The notes under the pieces: generated by a model | The model's input: only the letters and a program-made list of their open reading frames with translations | Told to the model about the DNA's origin: nothing | Database searches by the model: none | Made by a program: the position numbers and the translations under genes | Shown: piece after piece, positions 5,090 through 34,290 of the stretch | Layout of the letters: every line of letters begins with the position of its first letter | Numbering within the stretch: the stretch's first letter is position 1 | From: a virus | Strand: one strand, 5' to 3' | Virus record (IMG/VR): IMGVR_UViG_3300027733_000010 | Location: 1-34,977 of that record | DNA: 34,977 nt

Positions 5090-5408
5090 TGGCGAGAGTG
5101 ATCTCCTGGTCGATTACTAGACGCACCGTGGTAGAAGAAAAAACGACCCCATCAAAAGAACAGCGCAAGTCGATGGCGGCGGTTCCTACGTCCCACTTGG
5201 CAGTCGTGGAAGCGTCCGCGTAAAGCGTCACCGTAAGCATGTCCTCGCCAATGGAAACCGCCAGGGGCCAGCGGCGTTTGGAGTGATCCTGGATCTCCGA
5301 TTCGATGGTCACGCCAGTCAGATCAGCAGGATCACCAGATCCAGGGACATAAGGCCCGGAAGCCGTAAAGGTTTGCCCTCTCTTCCAGATAATAGTCGGC
5401 GCCGTCAT
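5082..5408 (-). CDS. small beta-rich tail protein, 108 aa
   Basis: The sequence starts MTAPTIIWKRGQTFTASGPY and is made of short beta strands (LTGVTIESEIQD, MLTVTLYADAST, STTVRLVIDQEITL) typical of an Ig-like or upper-fibre-attachment domain. Position immediately before the tail fibre suggests a baseplate or fibre-connector role. The start is preceded by one of five copies of the 15-bp element TTGACTSCSGCGTAG. Confidence 0.7.
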   Translation of the reverse strand: MTAPTIIWKRGQTFTASGPYVPGSGDPADLTGVTIESEIQDHSKRRWPLAVSIGEDMLTVTLYADASTTAKWDVGTAAIDLRCSFDGVVFSSTTVRLVIDQEITLANG

Positions 5409-5412
5409 AACC

Positions 5413-5429
5413 CTACGCCGCAGTCAAAA
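5413..5429 (-). promoter_or_regulatory. virion intercistronic element, copy 5413
   Basis: This is an identical 17-mer (TTTTGACTGCGGCGTAG on the minus strand) ending 4 bases before the ATG at 5408 in the tail region. The spacing to ATG equals that at the other two TTTT-type copies. Confidence 0.8.
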
Positions 5430-5440
5430 CCCCATTAAAA

Positions 5441-10489: not shown

Positions 10490-10507
10490 AGGTGCGAGAT
10501 CTTAGTC

Positions 10508-10523
10508 CTACGCGGGAGTCAAG
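10508..10523 (-). promoter_or_regulatory. virion intercistronic element variant, copy 10508
   Basis: The minus strand reads CTTGACTCCCGCGTAG. The TGA within it is the stop codon of the tail-terminator-like gene, and the next ATG is at 10489. It differs from the TTTT-type only by two G/C swaps in the middle. Confidence 0.75.
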
Positions 10524-10965
10524 CCGGAGGATAGACAGCCGCCAGCTCATAAGTCAGGGCGTTCCCGTAGCGTCTATCGGCCACGGCCTCTTCATCAGAT
10601 TTGATCCATGCATGGTAAAGCTGTCCCTGAGTCCAGGCCGACTTAAGTCCGTCAAGATCCTGCATGATAGCTTGAACATTCTCCACCCGTTCCCGATGCA
10701 TCGCCAGAGCTTCCGCATCAGTAGGGGCGTCGTCCGCAGATGAATAGACGAAGATCTTGATGGTAAGGGAAAAGTTACCCAGGGGGCGAGCTTGCAGATC
10801 CACATGCGACTCGGCCGACTCAGCGTAAAGGATAACGGCAGGTAAAGTCCTGATCTCATACGTCTGGCCGATGTTCACCTGGACTCCAGGAAGCATGCTG
10901 GCGTTCGTCGTGAACCAGGCCTTAATGGATTGCTCCGTGATTGTTCTGATGCCGTAGGTCGTCAT
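10519..10965 (-). CDS. putative tail terminator protein, 148 aa
   Basis: I chose the start MTTYGIRTITEQSIKAWFT at 10965, 4 bases after the upstream stop; a start at 11016 would overlap that gene. It has the alpha-beta pattern of lambda U-like terminators: an N-terminal helix, then PAVILYAESAESHVD, FSLTIKIFVYSSADD, then a helical Asp/Glu-rich stretch and YELAAVYPPA. Its position, after a Z/gp10-like gene and before the tube candidate, fits a tail terminator. Confidence 0.6.
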   Translation of the reverse strand: MTTYGIRTITEQSIKAWFTTNASMLPGVQVNIGQTYEIRTLPAVILYAESAESHVDLQARPLGNFSLTIKIFVYSSADDAPTDAEALAMHRERVENVQAIMQDLDGLKSAWTQGQLYHAWIKSDEEAVADRRYGNALTYELAAVYPPA

Positions 10966-10969
10966 GTGT

Positions 10970-11854
10970 TTAAAAGGATTGTCTGCTGGCGGCTGTCTGC
11001 CCTTGAGCAGTGGCAAGCCAGAGAGGGATCTGTTTCTTCTTAAGCTCCTGGATCATCTTCACTCTCATCGCATGCATGCGATAGCTCAAGGCGGACTTCA
11101 GGAGTCCAGAAGGCATCGCTCGCCTGCCGACCGTGTTCCCGATGGTCACGGTGGGCATCATCGGCTTATTAAGATCAGGGAGTCCGATGGCATAGGCCTC
11201 GCCTTCGGGTTGCTTAACCCAGGCGGGAGCTCTGACTTCCTTAGCTCTGATCTTCTGAGCCGCCCACCAGTAACCAGACTTCATGATGCCGACGTCGTCG
11301 AACTTGCGTTTCATGTATTGTTCGATGTTTCTTTCCTTAGGCACGATGGCGAAAATCCCTTTGGCTTTCTTGGCATAATCCTGGAGCCCGCCCTTGCCGT
11401 CGTATTTACGATGGCGATTATGGAGCTTGCTCATCTGGGAATAATCACCGTTCTCGATGAACACGACAGATCCTGATGCCGGGTATTTTCGTTGAAATGA
11501 CTCCCATCGTTTCATCGGGCTCTTTCCATCTTCATGCTTTCCGTGCGCCTTCTCCCACATCTTGAAAACTTCCAGTTTACCGATGGCCGTGATCTGGTTC
11601 TTCGTGGCAAAGGCAACGGGCTGGAACATTTTGAAGACTGCGGCCTGAACATTTGCCATGCCCTTTTTCTTAGCAGTGGAAGCCAGGCCAGCGCCAGAGC
11701 TGACAGACGGTCCAGTGATCTTCGCCAGATCCATGCAAAACAATCCAGCTTGTTCGCGGACTGTTTCTCCCAGATCTTTCCCCAGGACTTTTGCGTAGTC
11801 GTGTAGGTGCGCCATCAGCTGAGACGCATCGGTGTGTTTAACCTTAAGCTTCAT
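10970..11854 (-). CDS. neck or tail-completion protein, gpZ/gp10-like, 294 aa
   Basis: The protein is basic and helical throughout (HDYAKVLGKDLGETVREQAG, then KRKFDDVGIMKSGYWWAAQK), with a C-terminus MIQELKKKQIPLWLATA. Minor tail protein Z and HK97 gp10 have a similar N-terminal helix and the same place between head-tail joiner and tail terminator. At 294 residues it is longer than lambda Z (192), so it may include an added domain. The first base overlaps the last of the upstream stop (TGATG). Confidence 0.55.
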   Translation of the reverse strand: MKLKVKHTDASQLMAHLHDYAKVLGKDLGETVREQAGLFCMDLAKITGPSVSSGAGLASTAKKKGMANVQAAVFKMFQPVAFATKNQITAIGKLEVFKMWEKAHGKHEDGKSPMKRWESFQRKYPASGSVVFIENGDYSQMSKLHNRHRKYDGKGGLQDYAKKAKGIFAIVPKERNIEQYMKRKFDDVGIMKSGYWWAAQKIRAKEVRAPAWVKQPEGEAYAIGLPDLNKPMMPTVTIGNTVGRRAMPSGLLKSALSYRMHAMRVKMIQELKKKQIPLWLATAQGQTAASRQSF

Positions 11855-12198
11855 CAGCCAGCTGGCCCGGCCTTTGTCTGGACGCGGGCAATTACCCAGG
11901 CCGAGGGCGGGCGATCAGTTATGGAGACGATACGGTATTGCTTACCGTTGAACGTGACGAGGTTTCCATAGACCACGACCCCAGGACGTGCCTCGACATC
12001 AGACTTCAGGAACTTCACATCGTAGGCCGCAGAGTCCAGGAAGCCACCAGTCTCGAGATCCTGCTGAACCACTGGTTCGCTCATCAGGACATCAAAGGAA
12101 GTGGGAGTGCCGTTGCCCTTTTGGACAGTGACGGCCTTAGGGATCTCTGCCAGGATCTCCCCTGCGTCTGATGCCCATTCGTCCTGGATGATGCCCAT
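11854..12198 (-). CDS. head-tail joining protein, FII/stopper-like, 114 aa
   Basis: The protein is small and beta-rich (TSFDVLMSEPVVQQDLET, VVVYGNLVTFNGKQYRIVS, AWVIARVQTKAG). The segment in which a strand pair precedes GKQYRIVSI is typical of phage head-completion/stopper proteins such as lambda FII. It is the first connector gene after the two inserted cassettes. Its start is preceded by the TTGACTGCGGCGTAG element and by a G-quadruplex-like repeat. Confidence 0.65.
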   Translation of the reverse strand: MGIIQDEWASDAGEILAEIPKAVTVQKGNGTPTSFDVLMSEPVVQQDLETGGFLDSAAYDVKFLKSDVEARPGVVVYGNLVTFNGKQYRIVSITDRPPSAWVIARVQTKAGPAG

Positions 12199-12202
12199 GG
12201 CT

Positions 12203-12219
12203 CTACGCCGCAGTCAAAA
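12203..12219 (-). promoter_or_regulatory. virion intercistronic element, copy 12203
   Basis: The minus strand reads TTTTGACTGCGGCGTAG and ends 4 bases before the ATG at 12198. It is identical over 17 bases to the copies at 5413-5429 and 18158-18174. It does not fit a sigma70 promoter, because the -10 position would fall inside the gene. Confidence 0.8.
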
Positions 12220-12225
12220 GGCCAT

Positions 12226-12297: not shown

Positions 12298-12335
12298 AAA
12301 TAAAAGACCCCACCAGGTTTCCCTGGTAGGGTCTT
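12298..12335 (-). terminator. rho-independent terminator of cassette A
   Basis: On the minus strand a 14-bp stem (AAGACCCUACCAGG paired with CCUGGUGGGGUCUU, one G-U pair) closes a GAAA loop and is followed by UUAUUU. It lies 5 bases after the stop codon at 12341 and would separate the cassette from the head-tail genes. Confidence 0.85.
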
Positions 12336-12340
12336 GATCT

Positions 12341-12625
12341 TTACTCTGCGTCGTCCGCAGATCCAGCTTCCACGCTGTCGAGATTATGGAGGATCTCGTT
12401 CATCGTTTCTCCCAGGACGCATCCACGGCCTTCGTAATTGAAGGCGGGCTTCAGGCGAACCCAGATGGTTCGCATGTTACCTCCGAACGTGGGGAGCTCA
12501 GTCCATGCATAAGCTACCACCGGGGTGGCGAGCTTCTTAGGAATGAACTCCAGGAGCTTTGCCTTCTGCTTTTCAGTCAGAGGGCGAGCGGCGGGATCTT
12601 GCGGGTCGTATGCTTTTGTGGTCAT
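12341..12625 (-). CDS. moron-like cassette protein A, 94 aa
   Basis: I do not recognise this protein. It starts MTTKAYDPQDPAARPLTEKQ, has a basic helix (KAKLLEFIPKKL), beta segments (VAYAWTELPTFGGNM, RTIWVRLKPAFNYEG) and an acidic tail (SVEAGSADDAE). I chose the ATG at 12625 because it directly follows the C/A-rich leader shared with cassette B. It is a single-gene unit with its own promoter, folded leader and terminator, inserted between capsid and connector genes. High or separately timed expression is likely; decoration, exclusion or host-takeover roles are all open. Confidence 0.8.
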   Translation of the reverse strand: MTTKAYDPQDPAARPLTEKQKAKLLEFIPKKLATPVVAYAWTELPTFGGNMRTIWVRLKPAFNYEGRGCVLGETMNEILHNLDSVEAGSADDAE

Positions 12626-12646
12626 GTGTTTTGTGGTTTGGTTTCC

Positions 12647-12664
12647 CCAGGCGGTTAGGCCTGG
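12647..12664 (-). promoter_or_regulatory. leader hairpin of cassette A
   Basis: A stem of CCAGGC with GCCTGG and a 6-base loop lies about 22 bases before the ATG at 12625. The equivalent place in cassette B has a 7-bp stem with a GCAA loop, so structure is kept while the loop differs. Confidence 0.65.
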
Positions 12665-12703
12665 AAAGGTTTTCACGACCTGGGCGATACGTGAGAAAGA
12701 ACA

Positions 12704-12724
12704 GTAAGGAAAACTTAACCTTAC
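12704..12724. promoter_or_regulatory. dyad GTAAGG-n9-CCTTAC at the start of transcript A
   Basis: A perfect 6-bp inverted repeat lies directly downstream of the predicted -10 box, covering roughly +1 to +21. It is part of a 36-base block (12691-12726) identical to 13291-13326. It could be a repressor operator or a 5'-terminal mRNA hairpin. Confidence 0.75.
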
Positions 12725-12759
12725 ATCTTTATCCTATAACGTGGGGTCGTCTGCGTCAA
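12725..12759 (-). promoter_or_regulatory. sigma70-type promoter of cassette A
   Basis: The minus strand carries -35 TTGACG at 12759-12754, a 17-base spacer and -10 TAGGAT at 12736-12731. Expected transcription start is near 12724. The geometry is identical to promoter B exactly 600 bp upstream, although the spacer sequences differ. Confidence 0.8.
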
Positions 12760-12803
12760 GGTTTTATTTTCAACCCATTTTCCAGGAGCTCCGAAATCAT
12801 GAC

Positions 12804-12838
12804 AAACAAAAGGCCCACCAGGTTTCCCTGGCGGGCCT
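12804..12838 (-). terminator. rho-independent terminator of cassette B
   Basis: The minus-strand stem GGCCCGCCAGG pairs with CCUGGUGGGCC (one G-U pair) around a GAAA loop, followed by UUUUGUUUG. It lies 5 bases after the stop codon at 12844 and upstream of promoter A. Confidence 0.85.
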
Positions 12839-12843
12839 CGTTC

Positions 12844-13224
12844 TTATTCTCCGAGCAAACCTTTGGCGGCGAGCTGATCCTTGGCGAGCTTCACCAGGGC
12901 GGGCAGATGCTTCTTAGCTTCAGCCATCGTCCTATGCTCCCAGCGAACCGTCTTGCGGTTGGCTTCCCAGATCCCATCTCGCTTCCAGCAGAGCTCCCTG
13001 TTTCGGAAGTTATCTTCTGGAGCGTAGCCGCCTTTGAAGTTCACCAGGTCGGTGATCTCATACATCGCCGCGCTCAGGGAGACGTATTCCACGCTGGACG
13101 TGGATCCGCCACCGAATGAGATCCCGATGCAGGGGTCGGCACTTACGACTACCCACTTGTTCGGCAGGTTCGTCTTGATGCGGACGCTTTCAGGTTTGTC
13201 GTTCTTCGTTCGTTTTGTGGTCAT
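12844..13224 (-). CDS. moron-like cassette protein B, 126 aa
   Basis: I do not recognise this protein. It starts MTTKRTKNDKPESVRIKTNL, has a beta-rich centre (KWVVVSADPCIGISFGGGST, then VEYVSLSAAMYEITDLVNF), a Trp-rich segment (ELCWKRDGIWEANRKTVRWE) and an alanine/lysine helix at the end. Like cassette A it is a one-gene unit with its own promoter, folded leader and terminator, and both proteins begin MTTK after a near-identical leader. The rest of the two proteins does not look alike, so the regulatory part was duplicated or recruited separately from the coding part. Confidence 0.85.
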   Translation of the reverse strand: MTTKRTKNDKPESVRIKTNLPNKWVVVSADPCIGISFGGGSTSSVEYVSLSAAMYEITDLVNFKGGYAPEDNFRNRELCWKRDGIWEANRKTVRWEHRTMAEAKKHLPALVKLAKDQLAAKGLLGE

Positions 13225-13245
13225 GTGTTTTGTGGTTTGTAGATC

Positions 13246-13263
13246 CCAGGCCTTGCGGCCTGG
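13246..13263 (-). promoter_or_regulatory. leader hairpin of cassette B
   Basis: A perfect 7-bp stem, CCAGGCC with GGCCTGG, closes a GCAA tetraloop on the minus strand, about 22 bases before the ATG at 13224. It matches the position and stem of the cassette A leader hairpin. Confidence 0.7.
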
Positions 13264-13303
13264 AAAGTGATCATGACCCGAGCGAAGCTTGTGAGAAAGA
13301 ACA

Positions 13304-13324
13304 GTAAGGAAAACTTAACCTTAC
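13304..13324. promoter_or_regulatory. dyad GTAAGG-n9-CCTTAC at the start of transcript B
   Basis: This is an identical copy of the dyad at 12704-12724, within the 36-base perfect repeat 13291-13326. It again begins right after the -10 box. Confidence 0.75.
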
Positions 13325-13359
13325 ATTTTCATCATAAGAAATCCAATCGACGACGTCAA
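13325..13359 (-). promoter_or_regulatory. sigma70-type promoter of cassette B
   Basis: The minus strand carries -35 TTGACG at 13359-13354, a 17-base spacer and -10 TATGAT at 13336-13331, a near-consensus promoter. It lies between the capsid-gene terminator and gene B and should drive gene B alone. Confidence 0.85.
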
Positions 13360-13390
13360 GGATTTTTTTTTGGCTCGATTTTTTGCGACG

Positions 13391-13420
13391 ACAAAAAAGG
13401 CCTCGGTTTCCCGAGGCCTT
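13391..13420 (-). terminator. rho-independent terminator after the major capsid gene
   Basis: The minus strand has a perfect 10-bp stem (AAGGCCUCGG with CCGAGGCCUU) around a GAAA loop, followed by UUUU. It lies 23 bases after the capsid stop and insulates the capsid operon from cassette B. Confidence 0.88.
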
Positions 13421-13443: not shown

Positions 13444-14358
13444 TTAGAGATCCGAGATAACGACTCGGAGAGCGGCGTCAGGATTACCGACGGACTGACC
13501 GATGATCCAGGAAGCAGAGAGGTTCGACAGACCCTTAGTCCAATCGTACCAGCTACGGAGCGAGAAAGCGAAACCGCTATCAGGATCCTGGACGGTGATC
13601 TGTTCGCCACCGCCAGTAGTCGGAGCGGCCGGAACGCGCGTCACGATGACATGGCCTTCGCGACACGAAGCGATACCGTTCAGATGTTCGCCAGCAGGAG
13701 CGGCGCTGAAACCGTTATATTCGTAGATGTCGATGCCATGGAGACGACCGACCTTGCCATCGCGGATCACGGACGTGTCACCGATGGAGAGATACTGAGC
13801 GACAGAAGCATCCTGGAGAAGCTGGCCGAAAGCGTCAGGCGAAAGCAGGAGCGCTCGATCAGAGAAGGGCAGGTTCGCCTTCGTCATAGCAGTGGCGGCG
13901 TTAGCAATCGCCACGCGGTTGAAATTGGCCTTCGTGCCGGAGTAGGCGATGCCAGCATAATTAGCGGCAGTGGTTTCAGCCAGGACGCCATCGAAGAGGG
14001 ACTTCACAGTGGCGTTCGCCATCGGAGCGATGAACACGCGACGAAGCATGTCCAGGGAGATCGTGGCGACTTCGGTATCAGTGAAAGCAGTGGCGACGTA
14101 GTTATGATCAGCGAGAGTGATCGCGACATCAGTGGCATCAGCGTCTTCAGGAACGAAGCCGTTGGCGCGCACGTAGGTGCTAGCCGTGAACTTGTTAGCG
14201 AAGCGGGTGTGGACGACCTGGCCCTTTTCAGCGACGTAGCTGGAGAAGTCGGTCGTGACGATTTTGTTCAGCGGCGCGAGGACGGGAACAAGGGTGCGAA
14301 GGGTTTCGGCCGCAACGAACTGCGGAGCCAAACCCTGATTGAGAACATTATTGCTCAT
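13444..14358 (-). CDS. major capsid protein, 304 aa
   Basis: The N-terminus (NVLNQGLAPQFVAAETLRTL) and the pattern KIVTTDFSSYVAEKGQVVHT followed by MLRRVFIAPMANATVKSLFD match phage coat proteins of the P22-coat/HK97-fold type. The region PFSDRALLLSPDAFGQLLQD and HGIDIYEYNGF is the usual A-domain signature, and the C-terminus ends ALRVVISDL. It lies after the protease and scaffold-like genes and is followed by a strong terminator, consistent with very high expression. The leader is C/A-rich without a Shine-Dalgarno sequence. Confidence 0.85.
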   Translation of the reverse strand: MSNNVLNQGLAPQFVAAETLRTLVPVLAPLNKIVTTDFSSYVAEKGQVVHTRFANKFTASTYVRANGFVPEDADATDVAITLADHNYVATAFTDTEVATISLDMLRRVFIAPMANATVKSLFDGVLAETTAANYAGIAYSGTKANFNRVAIANAATAMTKANLPFSDRALLLSPDAFGQLLQDASVAQYLSIGDTSVIRDGKVGRLHGIDIYEYNGFSAAPAGEHLNGIASCREGHVIVTRVPAAPTTGGGEQITVQDPDSGFAFSLRSWYDWTKGLSNLSASWIIGQSVGNPDAALRVVISDL

Positions 14359-15083: not shown

Positions 15084-15102
15084 GTGGCTTCGTGATTTGA
15101 GT

Positions 15103-15118
15103 CTACGCGGGAGTCAAG
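15103..15118 (-). promoter_or_regulatory. virion intercistronic element variant, copy 15103
   Basis: The minus strand reads CTTGACTCCCGCGTAG, identical to the copy at 10508. Here too its TGA is the stop codon of the upstream gene, the head protease. The next start is the scaffold-like gene at 15083. Confidence 0.75.
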
Positions 15119-17886: not shown

Positions 17887-18153
17887 TTAAAGGCCTCGGA
17901 AGTTCCAGAGTCCGTTATAAACGCGGACGCGATCAATCGATCCGTATTGAGCAGGATCCTTGATCTGAAGGGCGTAACGACATTCGATAAGCGTCGTCTT
18001 GATGTCCATCGGGAAGGTTTTAGAAACGGACGTGCCGCTGTCCGTGTAAGTCATCATCGTCTTTCCTTCCATTAAAAGCGCGGCGGCTTTATCCGCAATC
18101 GCTTCGATGCGAGCTTGTGAAAGAATAAGAAAACATCCTGACGCCTGAGCCAT
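17887..18153 (-). CDS. gpW-like head-tail joining protein, 88 aa
   Basis: This is a small protein with an N-terminal helix (QARIEAIADKAAALLMEG) and two short strands (TMMTYTDSGTSVSKTF), ending with an Arg/Asn-rich turn (VRVYNGLWNFRGL). Size and place between large terminase and portal match lambda gpW, which closes the portal channel before tail joining. An upstream 130-base gap holds an inverted repeat and a copy of the virion intercistronic element. Confidence 0.7.
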   Translation of the reverse strand: MAQASGCFLILSQARIEAIADKAAALLMEGKTMMTYTDSGTSVSKTFPMDIKTTLIECRYALQIKDPAQYGSIDRVRVYNGLWNFRGL

Positions 18154-18157
18154 AACC

Positions 18158-18174
18158 CTACGCCGCAGTCAAAA
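18158..18174 (-). promoter_or_regulatory. virion intercistronic element, copy 18158
   Basis: This is an identical 17-mer ending 4 bases before the ATG of the gpW-like gene at 18153. The seven bases from the end of the element to the ATG (GGTT plus ATG) also match the copy at 5413. Confidence 0.8.
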
Positions 18175-18180
18175 CGAAGG

Positions 18181-20098: not shown

Positions 20099-20699
20099 CC
20101 TTTGAAAGATCCGCCCTTACGCGGAGCGCCCATGCTTCCAGGACTTTGACCGCCTTCGCTGGATTGTCTGGGTTGCAAGCTTCCGCCACATCGAGAGCCA
20201 GCTTGTCCAATCGGTTCACGAAGTCCCCTGCAAGTTTCCTCATCGCATCAGCTGAGTCAGCCGCACGAATGTATTCCCTATTCATTAACGCCAGGCGATC
20301 AGCTTCCGCCTTCAGCTTCGTCAGAGTGTTCACCGTTTTGTCGTAGGAAGCATAAAGCCGGGACTGTTGCGGCGATCCAGACTTCACCGATTTGATGTAT
20401 TGATTGCGAGAGATCTGCACCAGGATGCGCTGGCGTTCGATGATAGAGTCAAAGGTTTCCAGGACTGTTCCGTTCCCCTTATCGTCAGGGACTTCCGTGG
20501 ACTCAGCAGGAGCTTCGGCCTGAGAGCTTCCGTCCAGCTTGTAATCGGAAGGCGGGATCCCAGTGGACAAATGGCGTTGAGCTCTCCACTTCTCCGCCTC
20601 TTCGATGCTATCCAATGGCATGCCCTCGGAGACGAGCTGAGAGATACGCCCAGGCGAAAGCTCCCATCGCTCCGCCAGGATCTTTTGGCTGATCGACAT
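20091..20699 (-). CDS. terminase small subunit, Nu1-like, 202 aa
   Basis: The first 40 residues form a DNA-binding helix-turn-helix (SQKILAERWELSPGRISQLV), as in lambda Nu1. An acidic Ser/Pro linker follows, then a long helical C-terminal region (TVNTLTKLKAEADRLALMNR, then DFVNRLDKLALDVAEACN) able to form a coiled coil with the large subunit. The ATG overlaps the stop of the glycosyltransferase gene (TGATG). It selects the packaging site on concatemeric DNA. Confidence 0.85.
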   Translation of the reverse strand: MSISQKILAERWELSPGRISQLVSEGMPLDSIEEAEKWRAQRHLSTGIPPSDYKLDGSSQAEAPAESTEVPDDKGNGTVLETFDSIIERQRILVQISRNQYIKSVKSGSPQQSRLYASYDKTVNTLTKLKAEADRLALMNREYIRAADSADAMRKLAGDFVNRLDKLALDVAEACNPDNPAKAVKVLEAWALRVRADLSKDE

Positions 20700-21553
20700 C
20701 AGCTGAGTTTCTTAAAGTTTTCAGTCAGGATCACTGGAACGGTGTTGCGCCAGCGAACTTTGTGATGAATACGCGGGCCGCTCCCTCCATCCAAGACTGA
20801 GATCTTCACTGACGACGGCTGATAGATCACCGAATAGAATGTTTTGACGTATGTTCCGCTGTCCAGATACAGCTCCGTAAGTCCGCCGCTGTTAGATTGA
20901 GTCCGCTTCTGCTTTAGACAGACTTTCATCACCGTCAGGAAAATCCCTCCGCGCACTCCATTATCAACGTATGAATTAACGTCCTCGTTGATCCGACCGA
21001 AGAACTTGAAAGGCCTGTCCGTGGAGCAAAAAAAGCTGTTCATCGCCTTACGCTTTGGCTTGCGCCATGCAGATCCCTGGTCGCCGCCAACGTAGTCACC
21101 GCTCTGAGCCATCGCGATGGTCAAGGCCGGGATACTGATGTAATAATCCATCATCACATCCATCAGGGCGTCCAGGTCGACGAGCCGCTTGTCCACGTAG
21201 TTCCCCTGGTGATCTGCCATGTGGCGGAAATCCGTGTAATCATCATCGAGCATAATGAAATAACGGATGCCCAGATCCTTAGCGATGTCGAAGCATGCGT
21301 TCCGTGCATAAACCACCCCACGACGTCCTGGGAAGTTATCTCCGATGTCCGTGTAGCCGGCCGCTTTTTCCTTATCAAAAACGTAAAGCTCATCGCCAAA
21401 CTTTTCACGATACTCTTCATGCGACTGATCTTCGTTGTCGATGATCACGACGATGCGTCCCGTGTATCCCAGGCGGCGCAAAGTTTTGTAAGTGAAAACC
21501 TTATTAGCCCGTCCGTGCGTAAGGATGAAAGCGGCGAAGTCTTTATGCTTCAT
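20699..21553 (-). CDS. TET-associated-type glycosyltransferase (DNA base glycosylation), 284 aa
   Basis: The GT-A-like fold is visible: FILTHGRANKVFTYKTLRRLG (start about residue 10), IVVIIDNEDQS, then VVYARNACFDIAKDLGIRYF followed by the DDD sugar-nucleotide/metal motif at residues 103-105 (MLDDDYTDF). This HGRA...YTG...ARNA...LDDDY series matches TET/JBP-associated glycosyltransferases (TAGT), which add sugars to 5-hydroxymethyl pyrimidines in phage DNA. I chose the ATG at 21553, which overlaps the ParB-domain gene by 11 bases; a longer frame from 21655 lies inside that gene. The presumed product is sugar-decorated bases that block host nucleases. Confidence 0.8.
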   Translation of the reverse strand: MKHKDFAAFILTHGRANKVFTYKTLRRLGYTGRIVVIIDNEDQSHEEYREKFGDELYVFDKEKAAGYTDIGDNFPGRRGVVYARNACFDIAKDLGIRYFIMLDDDYTDFRHMADHQGNYVDKRLVDLDALMDVMMDYYISIPALTIAMAQSGDYVGGDQGSAWRKPKRKAMNSFFCSTDRPFKFFGRINEDVNSYVDNGVRGGIFLTVMKVCLKQKRTQSNSGGLTELYLDSGTYVKTFYSVIYQPSSVKISVLDGGSGPRIHHKVRWRNTVPVILTENFKKLS

Positions 21554-22349
21554 CGTCTTCCTTCTCCTGGGAAGTTTCATGTGCCGCCGCGTAGATGTCT
21601 TCGATCTGCTTTGACAGTGCGACATAACCGCCCTCGATGGCCTTATTGAAATCAATAATCACAAGGGCCGAAGCTTCCATGAGCTCCTGGACTTCCTTCG
21701 TGGCGTGGCAGTAATATTCAGCGATGTTCTGGTAATCGAAGATCACATGACGCTGGGCCGCTTGCATCAGGAAGGCCTTTTCCTCTTCCGTGGCTCCAGA
21801 CTCTAGGATCTTATCAGTCAGCTCTTCCATCTTCTTTTTATCAGTCAGGATGGAAAGATCCGGCTTCTCTCCCCTTGGCTCGTAAATCGGTGTGTCGATC
21901 TTCTTAGTGTAATAACCAGGATCAGAAGGATCTTCATGTTCTCCCATCAGCGCCGCAAGATCCTCAGGACTGAAACCGATTGCGTCCATGTCCACCAGGC
22001 CAGCTTCCTGGATCGCCATCAATTCAATCTTCAGGAGCTCATCGTTCCATCCTGCGTTCAGCGCCAGCTTGTTATCAGCCAGGACGTAGGCCTTCACCCG
22101 CTCTGGAGTCAGATGCTTCAGCTTGATCACGGGGACTTTTTCCAGGCCTAATTTCTTAGCCGCCATCAGACGACCGTGACCAGCGACGACAGTTAAATCG
22201 TCTTGAACTAAAATGGGATTATTAAACCCGAACTCGCTGATGCTTTTCGTCAGCTGTTCCACTTGCTCAGCAGAGTGCGTCCGAGCGTTGTTAGCGTAGG
22301 GTTTAAGATCCTCAGTCGGGATCATAATCACTTCGTGGAATGGGGTCAT
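21543..22349 (-). CDS. ParB/Srx-N domain protein paired with the glycosyltransferase, 268 aa
   Basis: Residues about 8-95 are a ParB N-terminal domain: PTEDLKPYANNARTHSAEQV, then NPILVQDDLTVVAGHGRLMA with the GHGR nucleotide-binding motif at 57-60. The C-terminal domain (RHVIFDYQNIAEYYCHATKE, then ALVIIDFNKAIEGGYVALS) is not the partition HTH domain. It overlaps the glycosyltransferase gene, so the pair is probably translated together. ParB-N domains in phage modification loci have been proposed to act on DNA or nucleotides; a role in guiding or priming base modification is inference. Confidence 0.8.
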   Translation of the reverse strand: MTPFHEVIMIPTEDLKPYANNARTHSAEQVEQLTKSISEFGFNNPILVQDDLTVVAGHGRLMAAKKLGLEKVPVIKLKHLTPERVKAYVLADNKLALNAGWNDELLKIELMAIQEAGLVDMDAIGFSPEDLAALMGEHEDPSDPGYYTKKIDTPIYEPRGEKPDLSILTDKKKMEELTDKILESGATEEEKAFLMQAAQRHVIFDYQNIAEYYCHATKEVQELMEASALVIIDFNKAIEGGYVALSKQIEDIYAAAHETSQEKEDDEA

Positions 22350-26422: not shown

Positions 26423-26812
26423 TCATCTGGAACACTTGAGAGGATCAACATGTTCAGGCGGAAAAAGATTATAGATCTTCGTCTGTCCAGGAGGCGGTGG
26501 AAACGCAGATTTGATCCTAAAGGAAAGGCCGTAGGCCTGGACTTCCTCGACGCTCATCTGCATCATTTCCGCAGTGTCCTTTAGGCCTATGCCCAGGCGG
26601 AAAGCTTCCCTGATCAGCACGGCAGGATCATAAGGGATAGATTGACCTCGATCGATGGCCGGACCTGTCCTAGAATGAGTCGTGTCGTCCTTTGAACACG
26701 CCAGGAGAAAATGAGCCCGTGCCAGGGATAGACCGAGGATCTCGCACCGCTCCTGGAGATCCAGTGGGCGTCGGGGTGAATTGTCGCAGACCATCTCGCC
26801 GTCAGAGTCCAA
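26423..26812 (-). CDS. hypothetical protein with HTH-like segment, 129 aa
   Basis: I do not recognise this protein. It begins acidic (MDSDGEMVCDNSPRRPLDLQ), and the segment AFRLGIGLKDTAEMMQMSVE resembles a helix-turn-helix recognition region. The C-terminus is Pro-rich (PPPPGQTKIYNLFPPEHVDP). The gene overlaps the dNMP-kinase gene by 11 bases and ends 6 bases before the metallophosphoesterase gene, so it is in the same transcription unit. Confidence 0.65.
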   Translation of the reverse strand: MDSDGEMVCDNSPRRPLDLQERCEILGLSLARAHFLLACSKDDTTHSRTGPAIDRGQSIPYDPAVLIREAFRLGIGLKDTAEMMQMSVEEVQAYGLSFRIKSAFPPPPGQTKIYNLFPPEHVDPLKCSR

Positions 26813-27380
26813 GCTGTCGAGCCAGGTTCTTTCCTTCGCTGAGAATTGATGGTTTGCTATCAGGTTTGAAGCCGTAGTTCACATGCACGGGGACGTTGCG
26901 AACGATCTCCCCGATGGATTTTCCTTCTTCTTCGTTGGCCGCTTCTACTCCAGCCGTCGTCACCTGGACGGTGTAGATCTTCCATTCGTCACCGAGGGCG
27001 TAATTCACGATGGTCAGTTCATTCATGTATCGCCAGTCGGAGCAGATCACCGTCACGTCTTCATCTGGAAACCGTTTGGCGTCCCGCATGCATTGGCGCG
27101 TGAAGGCGTGGGCGAAAACATCGCGGTCGATAGATCTGGCAAACATGCCAGCCGCTACCAGGAACTCGCGATGCTTAACCTTGAATGACTCATTACGGAA
27201 AGTGCGGGATGATCCGCTTCCTCCCAGATCCAGGACTTGCAGATAACAGTCGCATGCATGCTTAAGCATGTCCGCGAAATTAAGACGAACGCTGGGCCGC
27301 TTGGCTCCGAGCTCAATCCCTTCAGCCAGGGAGTCCTTCCCCGCACGTGCGTATCCAGTGATCAAGATGATTGCTTTCAT
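26802..27380 (-). CDS. deoxynucleoside monophosphate kinase, 192 aa
   Basis: The N-terminal P-loop is GYARAGKDS (residues 9-17), the form used by phage dNMP kinases of the T4 gp1 type, followed by LNFADMLKHACD and the region VICSDWRYMNELTIV. These enzymes phosphorylate dNMPs, including modified ones, for DNA synthesis. In phages with altered bases, such a kinase lets modified nucleotides enter the dNTP pool. The length is near that of small gp1-like kinases. Confidence 0.8.
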   Translation of the reverse strand: MKAIILITGYARAGKDSLAEGIELGAKRPSVRLNFADMLKHACDCYLQVLDLGGSGSSRTFRNESFKVKHREFLVAAGMFARSIDRDVFAHAFTRQCMRDAKRFPDEDVTVICSDWRYMNELTIVNYALGDEWKIYTVQVTTAGVEAANEEEGKSIGEIVRNVPVHVNYGFKPDSKPSILSEGKNLARQLGL

Positions 27381-28887: not shown

Positions 28888-29118
28888 TTAGTTCTTATTC
28901 TGATCCTGGCAGATCTCCAGTTCGGAGTCGCCAGTGGACTCAGCTCCGACGTAATAACATTCGGGAGCGTTGATCTCCTTAGCTCTCTTGCGAAGGGTTT
29001 TGTCGTCGAAGATCAGGGAGTCCACGAAGTCGTTACCAATTTCTTCGGCAGACTCGACATCGTCAGCAGTGACGCGGATCTTGATCATTACGTATTCGGT
29101 GCGGATGTAAGCGGGCAT
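28888..29118 (-). CDS. small acidic hypothetical protein, 76 aa
   Basis: I do not recognise this protein. Sequence MPAYIRTEYVMIKIRVTADD is followed by an acidic helix (VESAEEIGNDFVDSLIFDD) and an end rich in Glu/Asp (STGDSELEICQDQNKN). The alternating strand-helix layout suggests a small alpha/beta fold. The leader is C/A-rich (CCCAAACTATAAACCC). Confidence 0.7.
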   Translation of the reverse strand: MPAYIRTEYVMIKIRVTADDVESAEEIGNDFVDSLIFDDKTLRKRAKEINAPECYYVGAESTGDSELEICQDQNKN

Positions 29119-29142
29119 GGGTTTATAGTTTGGGGAAATAGA

Positions 29143-30660: not shown

Positions 30661-31241
30661 TTGGCGATGGCCTTGAGGAAGGCGACCTGGTTCTCGGTGA
30701 TCACGGCCTGGTGCTCGCTACTGAGGGACGCAAGAGGATGGTCGTCAGATAACCATCCTTTAGAAACCAGATACGCCTTCGCCCTATCAAGCTTGTCTGC
30801 TGGAATAAAACTCCACCAGTGACCGCTGGCCTGAGCCGTAGTGCGTCGGGCAGGAGCTGAAGCTTTAGCTCCATCATCATCGATGTCCGTGGAAATACCG
30901 CAAGCGGTCTGGATGGACTGACGACGCAGATAAGTGATCGCGGAACCGAGCTTCTGGGCATCCAGGCCTTCCGCCTTAATTGCCAAGGATCCAGCTTCGT
31001 GAGTCATGCCGTCGGCATGCAGGAAGACGGTGGCGACGCGAACTTGTCCATCAGCAGAGTGAAGGGACTGATGCACGGCCAGGTTATGTTTAGACGCTTC
31101 CGCCTTCACGGTGTCCAGGATCTCAGCCAACGAAGCGTAGCGAGACTTGAAAGCCGGGTTGATGCGGTCTGCGGCGACGTTGCCGATGGCGTTCAGGAAG
31201 TTCACCAGATCCTGACGTGATGTGTTTTGTTCTTTAGGCAT
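30657..31241 (-). CDS. ERF-family single-strand annealing protein, 194 aa
   Basis: I chose the ATG at 31241 after the leader CCTCAAAACCATAAACCC. The ERF signature is present: KSRYASLAEILDTVKAEASK near residue 33, then GSAITYLRRQSIQTACGIST at about 99-118 followed by DIDDDG. ERF proteins anneal complementary ssDNA and work with a 5'-3' exonuclease, here the RecE-like gene at 28050-28856. The C-terminal region (HWWSFIPADKLDRAKAYLVS) is likely a partner-binding domain. Confidence 0.85.
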   Translation of the reverse strand: MPKEQNTSRQDLVNFLNAIGNVAADRINPAFKSRYASLAEILDTVKAEASKHNLAVHQSLHSADGQVRVATVFLHADGMTHEAGSLAIKAEGLDAQKLGSAITYLRRQSIQTACGISTDIDDDGAKASAPARRTTAQASGHWWSFIPADKLDRAKAYLVSKGWLSDDHPLASLSSEHQAVITENQVAFLKAIAK

Positions 31242-31263
31242 GGGTTTATGGTTTTGAGGAAAG

Positions 31264-32431: not shown

Positions 32432-32709
32432 GAAAGTGTCCTGGTAACGACTGAACCGCAGAAAGGTTCTACGCCAGCAGTGAAGCTGTATGTTATGCCA
32501 ATCCATCCACCAGCCGCAACATAAGGTTCAATCTTAACGTCCAGGGCGTTGTTAGCTTGCATGATCCTGGCATAATGATCGCAGAGTTTCCTGGCCCGAG
32601 GGAGTCCAGTCCTGGCTGAGCAGATGTCCCCTGCAACGATGCGATCGTTGATCTCCCCTGACTCGATAAACAGCTGACGCATAATGGATAGATGGATCCC
32701 AGATTTCAT
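32428..32709 (-). CDS. hypothetical protein upstream of the endolysin, 93 aa
   Basis: I do not recognise this protein. It has a helical N-terminal half (GIHLSIMRQLFIESGEINDR, then RKLCDHYARIMQANNALD) and a hydrophobic Gly-rich C-terminal part (YVAAGGWIGITYSFTAGVEP). Its stop overlaps the endolysin GTG start, so it probably couples endolysin translation. Confidence 0.65.
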   Translation of the reverse strand: MKSGIHLSIMRQLFIESGEINDRIVAGDICSARTGLPRARKLCDHYARIMQANNALDVKIEPYVAAGGWIGITYSFTAGVEPFCGSVVTRTLS

Positions 32710-33047
32710 ACGTTGCGAAAATAGAAGCCATCGACCTCGAAATGATCATACATAAGATCGCGGGAGAACTTTTCCCAATCGAAGTAAATCTCCAGCTGGT
32801 GCGTATGTCTTCCGTTGGCCGGCAGACAGCTGAACAAGCCAACGCTGTCCGCATAATCATAAGCGAACTTTAGGTCGGTGGCGTATTCTCCGACGAAGGC
32901 CTCGTCAGCTTCCCTCAGATGCTTAAGCTCTGGATCGATGATGTTCATGTTATGGCAATAAGCGAGCATCGCTTCTGGCCCGATCGTGATGTCGTTTCTG
33001 GGATAAAGCTCCAGGATCTGATCCTTGATGTCTTTAGGTTTCTTCAT
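32706..33047 (-). CDS. hypothetical protein, 113 aa
   Basis: I do not recognise this protein. It starts basic (MKKPKDIKDQILELYPRND), has an acidic aromatic centre (FVGEYATDLKFAYDYADSVG) and a C-terminal segment with HTHQLEIYFDWEKFSRDLMY. Two His near the middle of the C-terminal half do not form a recognised metal motif. The stop overlaps the next ATG (ATGA). Confidence 0.65.
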   Translation of the reverse strand: MKKPKDIKDQILELYPRNDITIGPEAMLAYCHNMNIIDPELKHLREADEAFVGEYATDLKFAYDYADSVGLFSCLPANGRHTHQLEIYFDWEKFSRDLMYDHFEVDGFYFRNV

Positions 33048-33666: not shown

Positions 33667-33682
33667 TTGAAATTATTTTCAA
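33667..33682. promoter_or_regulatory. 16-bp A/T palindrome after the methyltransferase gene
   Basis: TTGAAA-TTAT-TTTCAA is a perfect inverted repeat overlapping the stop codon of the methyltransferase-like gene, in the 74-base gap before the gene starting at 33604. It could be an operator; the minus-strand TTGAAA also resembles a -35 box, but the -10 position (CTTTAC) is poor. Confidence 0.4.
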
Positions 33683-34290
33683 GGGAGGTTTCCCCACTGA
33701 TCTGCCATCGCTTTTGCCACGCCCAGGAACGTCCTGGAGCTTTCCTTTGCGTTCTTGCTGATCCCTCGGCTAAAGGCCTGTCCTCGCCGCCTTCCGCCCG
33801 TATTGGACGGCAAATAGGGTTTCCAATCGGAAAGCACGTCAGTGGGAACCAGGGGCGGGAGTCCCTTCAGCCATAGCAGAGTTCGCTTGGAATAAGGATG
33901 ACCGAACTGATACGGCTGGATCGCCTGAGTCGGTTCAGGGAGTCCGTAGATCTTCATCGGGGTGGGGTTTTCGATGCAGATCTTAGGGCAGTTCAGGTTC
34001 AGGAAAAGCTCGAAGAACTTTTTTGCTTCAAGGCCTTTCTCGTAGCGTTCCTGATTGATTTTCCCTCCGCCATAAAGCCAGCGAGCTCCAGCCCGCGAAA
34101 GAAACGTGCAGGGAGGATGAGCGATGATCAGATCCCACTTCATGCCCATCAGATCTCTCACGTCTCCCACATGATGCGGACCAGGAGTTTCCGTCTCTTG
34201 TAAATCACACGACATCGCGAAGTGTCCTCGGGCGATGAACGCATCACGCACACGGCCAGAACATTCGCAAGCGACAAGAACTTTTATCAT
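33679..34290 (-). CDS. C5-cytosine-methyltransferase-like protein, 203 aa
   Basis: The N-terminus IKVLVACECSGRVRDAFIAR is the SAM-binding motif I. The catalytic Pro-Cys motif IV is AHPPCTFLS (Cys61), and motif VI is ICIENPTP (Glu107-Asn-Pro). The protein is short, without an obvious target-recognition domain, and belongs to a common phage family of uncertain specificity. It would place 5-methylcytosine, or a related mark, on DNA. Together with the glycosyltransferase at 20699-21553 it could supply the base that is later decorated. The ATG overlaps the upstream stop by 4 bases. Confidence 0.7.
   Translation of the reverse strand: MIKVLVACECSGRVRDAFIARGHFAMSCDLQETETPGPHHVGDVRDLMGMKWDLIIAHPPCTFLSRAGARWLYGGGKINQERYEKGLEAKKFFELFLNLNCPKICIENPTPMKIYGLPEPTQAIQPYQFGHPYSKRTLLWLKGLPPLVPTDVLSDWKPYLPSNTGGRRRGQAFSRGISKNAKESSRTFLGVAKAMADQWGNLP

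Follow-up and report, generated by a model that had tools for sequence, protein, structure and literature searches.

Two probable tandem morons behind a shared leader, between the capsid and connector genes of a phage likely to infect Verrucomicrobia

Layout of the locus and its phage

Downstream of its major capsid protein gene the virus record studied here (34,977 bp, all of which we call the window) carries two one-gene units, cassettes A and B, each with a sigma70-type promoter, a leader of about 100 nt and a terminator, and a connector-like gene follows (Table 1). The coordinates confirm this arrangement as set out in a preliminary description of the DNA, together with the third terminator it had placed at the close of the capsid gene and the 600-bp offset it had noted between the units, whose control regions are direct repeats in register (80 nt at 80% identity with a spacing of 600, and 55 nt at 84% with a spacing of 599). 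The exactness of the 600-bp spacing is in our judgement probably fortuitous, the ORFs and the intergenic stretches being unequal in length. The cassette A promoter is unique for its consensus score on both strands of the window, while that of cassette B is weak and alone would not stand out; it is placed as the cassette A promoter is within the duplicated control region. The three terminators head the list of 11 from a 10-kb scan, and since terminator-like sites are frequent by chance (11.1 expected) what gives these three weight is how long their stems are and where they lie.

Table 1. Features of the cassette region, in order of transcription on the minus strand
Feature	Position	Strand	Details
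Major capsid protein gene (upstream neighbour)	13444..14358	-	phrog_283 (major head protein), E 1.1e-27
Terminator after capsid gene	13397..13420	-	10-pair stem, T-rich tail
Cassette A promoter	13331..13359	-	TTGACG-17-TATGAT; no other site in the window reaches 10/12 consensus matches
Cassette A leader	13225..13324	-	Repeat shared with cassette B and L003; RNA fold z = -5.2
Cassette A leader, H1	13304-13324	-	
Cassette A leader, tail	13292-13303	-	
Cassette A leader, start-codon-pairing arm	13272-13278	-	
Cassette A leader, H2	13246-13263	-	
Cassette A ORF, P0002	12844..13224	-	126 aa, pI 9.4, orphan; first four codons are part of the conserved leader element
Cassette A terminator	12810..12839	-	13-pair stem, T-rich tail
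Cassette B promoter	12731..12759	-	TTGACG-17-TAGGAT; 9/12 consensus matches; position relative to leader as in cassette A
Cassette B leader	12626..12724	-	Repeat shared with cassette A and L003; second hairpin H2; RNA fold z = -2.5
Cassette B leader, H1	12704-12724	-	
Cassette B leader, start-codon-pairing arm	12674-12680	-	
Cassette B ORF, P0001	12341..12625	-	94 aa, pI 5.4, orphan
Cassette B terminator	12304..12335	-	14-pair stem, T-rich tail
Connector gene (head-tail attachment / head closure-like; downstream neighbour)	11854..12198	-	PF05354, E 2.6e-4, below Pfam cut-off; adjoins capsid gene in 72 relatives

In the annotated frame both cassette ORFs use codons as the rest of the phage genes do, and the five alternative frames score lower, which supports both as real genes. 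With a GC content of 56%, against 57.5% for the capsid gene and 53.2% for the window, the ORFs match the phage in composition as they do in codon usage and so do not point to a recent foreign origin; the leaders alone are AT-rich (42-45% GC). As the preliminary description had it, P0001 and P0002 share an MTTK start and otherwise show no similarity, their alignment score falling below the shuffle mean. The shared start comes from ATGACCACAAAA, which is identical at the nucleotide level in the two cassettes and in a third found in a related phage (locus L003, see below) and belongs to the conserved leader, so that it gives no sign of protein kinship. Common ancestry of P0001 with the L003 protein was likewise rejected (score below the shuffle mean), and for P0002 and the L003 protein a weak C-terminal similarity, reached by 12 of 1000 shuffles, was insufficient to claim it. 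Neither P0001 nor P0002 had a match in 48 related records or by a pattern scan of IMG/VR, and searches of protein families, defence models, solved structures, and phage and plasmid collections gave nothing usable; AlphaFold models, made without alignments, were of too poor quality for a fold search. Each of the three cassette proteins has been found in one phage only.

The genome has a 127-bp direct terminal repeat and all its assignable genes lie on the minus strand. They include genes for a terminase, a portal, an S49-type head protease and the major capsid protein, and elsewhere ParB-like, DnaB-like, Erf-like, exonuclease and Holliday-resolvase proteins are encoded. The nearest named phage is Verrucomicrobia phage P8625, a lytic siphovirus (PMC4642752), which gives the top terminase match (24% identity) and is the sole named phage to match the capsid protein (28.5% identity). 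As no capsid relatives were found in host genomes, the host, likely a member of the Verrucomicrobia, is deduced from P8625 alone. The scan of 40 ORFs recognised neither an integrase nor a repressor, and the phage is probably virulent, although the missing integrase match is no proof of a lytic lifestyle.

Several further features were observed in the genome. Matches to a glucosyltransferase of the HMC-glucosylating family (phrog_842, 20699-21655, minus strand) and a deoxynucleoside monophosphate kinase (phrog_139, 26802-27380, minus strand) together hint at modified phage DNA, and there are matches to an anti-restriction protein (phrog_2059, 32706-33047, minus strand) and a DNA methyltransferase (phrog_757, 33679-34290, minus strand). 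An A-rich, non-Shine-Dalgarno start context like AAACCATAAAACCATG is common to several non-structural genes (minus-strand starts at 756-773, 29114-29138 and 31237-31261). The motif TTGACTnnnGCGT(A/T)G precedes late genes, both in the window (minus strand, near 5406-5430, 10501-10525, 12196-12220, about 15100-15117 and 18151-18175) and in L003-L080; in 766 kb it has 163 copies on the capsid strand and 0 on the opposite strand, 80 of the 163 lying exactly 4 nt ahead of an ATG.

The capsid-connector interval in related phages

A scan with the capsid protein yielded 78 related loci, 72 of which also hold the connector gene; several of the contigs are near-identical, so the number of independent cases is smaller. 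In 58 of the 72 the interval between the two genes measures 73-174 bp and contains no gene, with a terminator-like stem usually visible after the capsid gene, and the sequence past the cassette B terminator resembles that past the relatives' single terminator in a junction alignment. Compared with related phages, then, the cassettes are missing from most, and far from being conserved in all relatives their place is without any gene in those 58. The other 14 carry a longer insert, most commonly an ATP-dependent DNA ligase (PF01068, E 4e-19; 10 inserts: L018, L023, L036, L050, L051, L055, L058, L059, L060 and L062). Small ORFs behind sigma70-type promoters occur in L050, L062, L070 and L071, where a second kind of cassette leader has its own inverted repeat, TATTCCAATCAAGGAATA, where transcription is predicted to start, and at least two of the ORFs behind it are unrelated in sequence; the L020 insert has short ORFs in both orientations. 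Such varied cargo in 14 of 72 relatives marks the capsid-connector site as an insertion hotspot.

L003 (IMGVR_UViG_3300042377_000412) carries just one cassette, in which the same leader precedes the gene of a third orphan protein, 106 aa long. Compared with L003 the empty site is clean in L008, L011 and L024, placing the insert between TTTTGTTTGCGCGC and GTTTGACCCCTCTGG. These comparisons also bear on whether both genes might be lineage-specific head accessory proteins, for decoration or cement, that happen to own promoters. Their position directly after the capsid gene would suit such a role, and phage morons are known to include decoration genes (PMC4378225). However, the genes are missing from most relatives with 84-95% identical capsid proteins, the L003 protein differs even though its capsid protein is 95% identical, and DNA ligase is among the other cargo at the site, which makes this explanation very unlikely.

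A leader shared by three unrelated genes

The 33-mer GTAAGGTTAAGTTTTCCTTACTGTTCTTTCTCA occurs twice in the window and once in the L003 phage, and is absent, at up to 3 mismatches, from the 47 other records. The 21-nt leader hairpin was absent from the genome collection and host genomes, a covariance model of the leader found no further copies (rough E-values otherwise at least 0.23), and Rfam gave no match at gathering score in the window. The loose hairpin GTAAGG-N9-CCTTACTGTT turned up at 15 loci besides L002 without the tail and promoter context, and a start-region pattern matched L106 without such a leader; both were treated as chance. In all three copies 34 nt at the predicted transcript start, comprising the hairpin and a pyrimidine tail, are identical. 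No other exact match shared by the window and L003 is as long, and those within the capsid gene all fall short of it; at third codon positions the two capsid genes are 58% identical.

The three leaders, the only sequences on which the structure is based, share a predicted fold in which hairpin H1 and an unpaired pyrimidine-rich tail are followed by a start-codon stem around hairpin H2. H1 starts 6-8 nt past the predicted -10 box and is a perfect 6-bp inverted repeat, GTAAGG-N9-CCTTAC, at the predicted start. The arm GGUC(A/G)U is predicted to pair with AUGACC, start codon included, and the mean unpaired probability round the start is 0.22-0.23; such occlusion is not unique, the two cassette genes ranking 4th and 5th of 42 starts. 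Among the three sequences a single compensatory change occurs in H2 (A-U to G-C) and a single G-U change in the start-codon stem; with so few sequences covariation is not significant by column shuffle (160/500). An outer stem runs on into the codons past ATGACCACAAAA, where the sequences differ per copy. Its native arms pair at -9.1, -6.7 and -7.6 kcal/mol, whereas swapped arms give -1.6 to -4.6, with per-copy shuffle p values of 0.05, 0.03 and 0.14, so that a matching of arm to cargo is suggestive only.

A perfect inverted repeat at the predicted start in three of three copies might act as a DNA operator, with a host or phage repressor silencing the cassettes until induction and the RNA fold of H1 being incidental; a different inverted repeat, TATTCC-N6-GGAATA, stands at the equivalent place in L050, L062, L070 and L071. 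The 9-nt loop and the 12-nt non-palindromic tail are nevertheless as invariant as the arms, and the ORF scan recognised no repressor, so we consider an operator unlikely. Alternatively the leader could modify RNA polymerase like the put RNA of phage HK022, giving readthrough of the terminators that feeds the connector operon, given that each added cassette brings another terminator upstream of the connector gene. This seems hardly credible, as cassette-free relatives carry a terminator-like stem there too and get by with no such leader, and the layout does not look like that of put RNA.

Interpretation and comparison with known systems

Taken together, the two units are promoter-ORF-terminator insertions absent from most relatives, as morons are defined (PMC4378225), which bears out the preliminary reading of them as moron-like. 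From the sequence comparisons we consider it probable that the hotspot between capsid terminator and connector gene has here, in a probably virulent Verrucomicrobia phage, received two tandem morons controlled by a shared leader. That two phages have this leader ahead of three different orphan ORFs suggests a persistent control region with changing cargo. Judging from the promoter sequence, the cassettes would be transcribed by host sigma70 polymerase, separately from the capsid operon and probably at an early stage of infection. The 5'-terminal H1 may then slow 5'-end-dependent mRNA decay, in the way that a 5' hairpin impedes RppH and stabilises mRNA (PMC3997798), and the start-codon-pairing stem may keep translation low or conditional until opened by the ribosome or a factor, as start-pairing leaders of T4 e, soc and homing endonuclease genes might lead one to expect (PMC3014915); we infer both kinds of control for the cassettes by analogy. 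New cargo would recombine in at the leader and terminator repeats, plausibly via the Erf-like annealing protein of the phage (30657-31295). The cassette proteins themselves would act as small host-takeover or counter-defence accessories and not as essential head parts. Host-type promoters and the lack of recognisable lysogeny genes suggest early action, and in our judgement, which is not a result, host takeover or counter-defence is the most likely function and is favoured over decoration.

Beyond this, we tentatively propose, as a possibility we hold to be less probable than the moron reading itself, that the leader is a new portable regulatory RNA, consisting of a 5' hairpin, an invariant tail and a start-codon-pairing stem with an outer arm matching the first codons of each cargo, behind which unrelated accessory genes are swapped and all answer to one common trans factor (a host protein, a small RNA or a phage protein). 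Morons are already a known kind of element; the novelty lies in unrelated cargo genes having a structured leader in common. The case is compact, and what is conserved and repeated in it is the moron's control element and not its cargo. If this is true, further accessory genes could be searched for by way of the leader, which would also offer a likely means by which phages swap cargo and an RNA element open to testing in a phylum with little-known phage gene control; the hotspot is likewise a place to mine for accessory functions.

In P8625, a distant relation, consecutive short ORFs are annotated after the capsid gene. Arbiol et al. (2010) reportedly described the PeSPEARs of T4-type phages, mobile regulatory cassettes in which repeats of an early promoter and a stem-loop would help variable genes to be shuffled; our cassettes would resemble them in this respect, but lie in an unrelated phage and at one hotspot in the head operon. 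The 5'-terminal stem-loop stabilisers of ompA and papA (PMC3997798) similarly place a hairpin at or near the transcript 5' end, a start that is a prediction here. In the leaders of T4 e, soc and I-TevI and Aeh1 mobE (PMC3014915) the start region is also stem-paired in phage mRNAs, some of them accessory or mobile; however, the late transcript of T4 e begins inside the stem and so escapes it, whereas the start predicted here lies upstream of the whole structure, and the gene e mechanism is therefore not directly transferable. Lastly, the morons of lambdoid and other phages are likewise single ORFs with their own promoter and terminator between genes that are adjacent in relatives (PMC4378225). 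The usual though not required moron trait of deviating base composition is absent from our cassette ORFs, and in contrast to classic morons these form a tandem pair with duplicated leaders, in which one leader stands before different ORFs.
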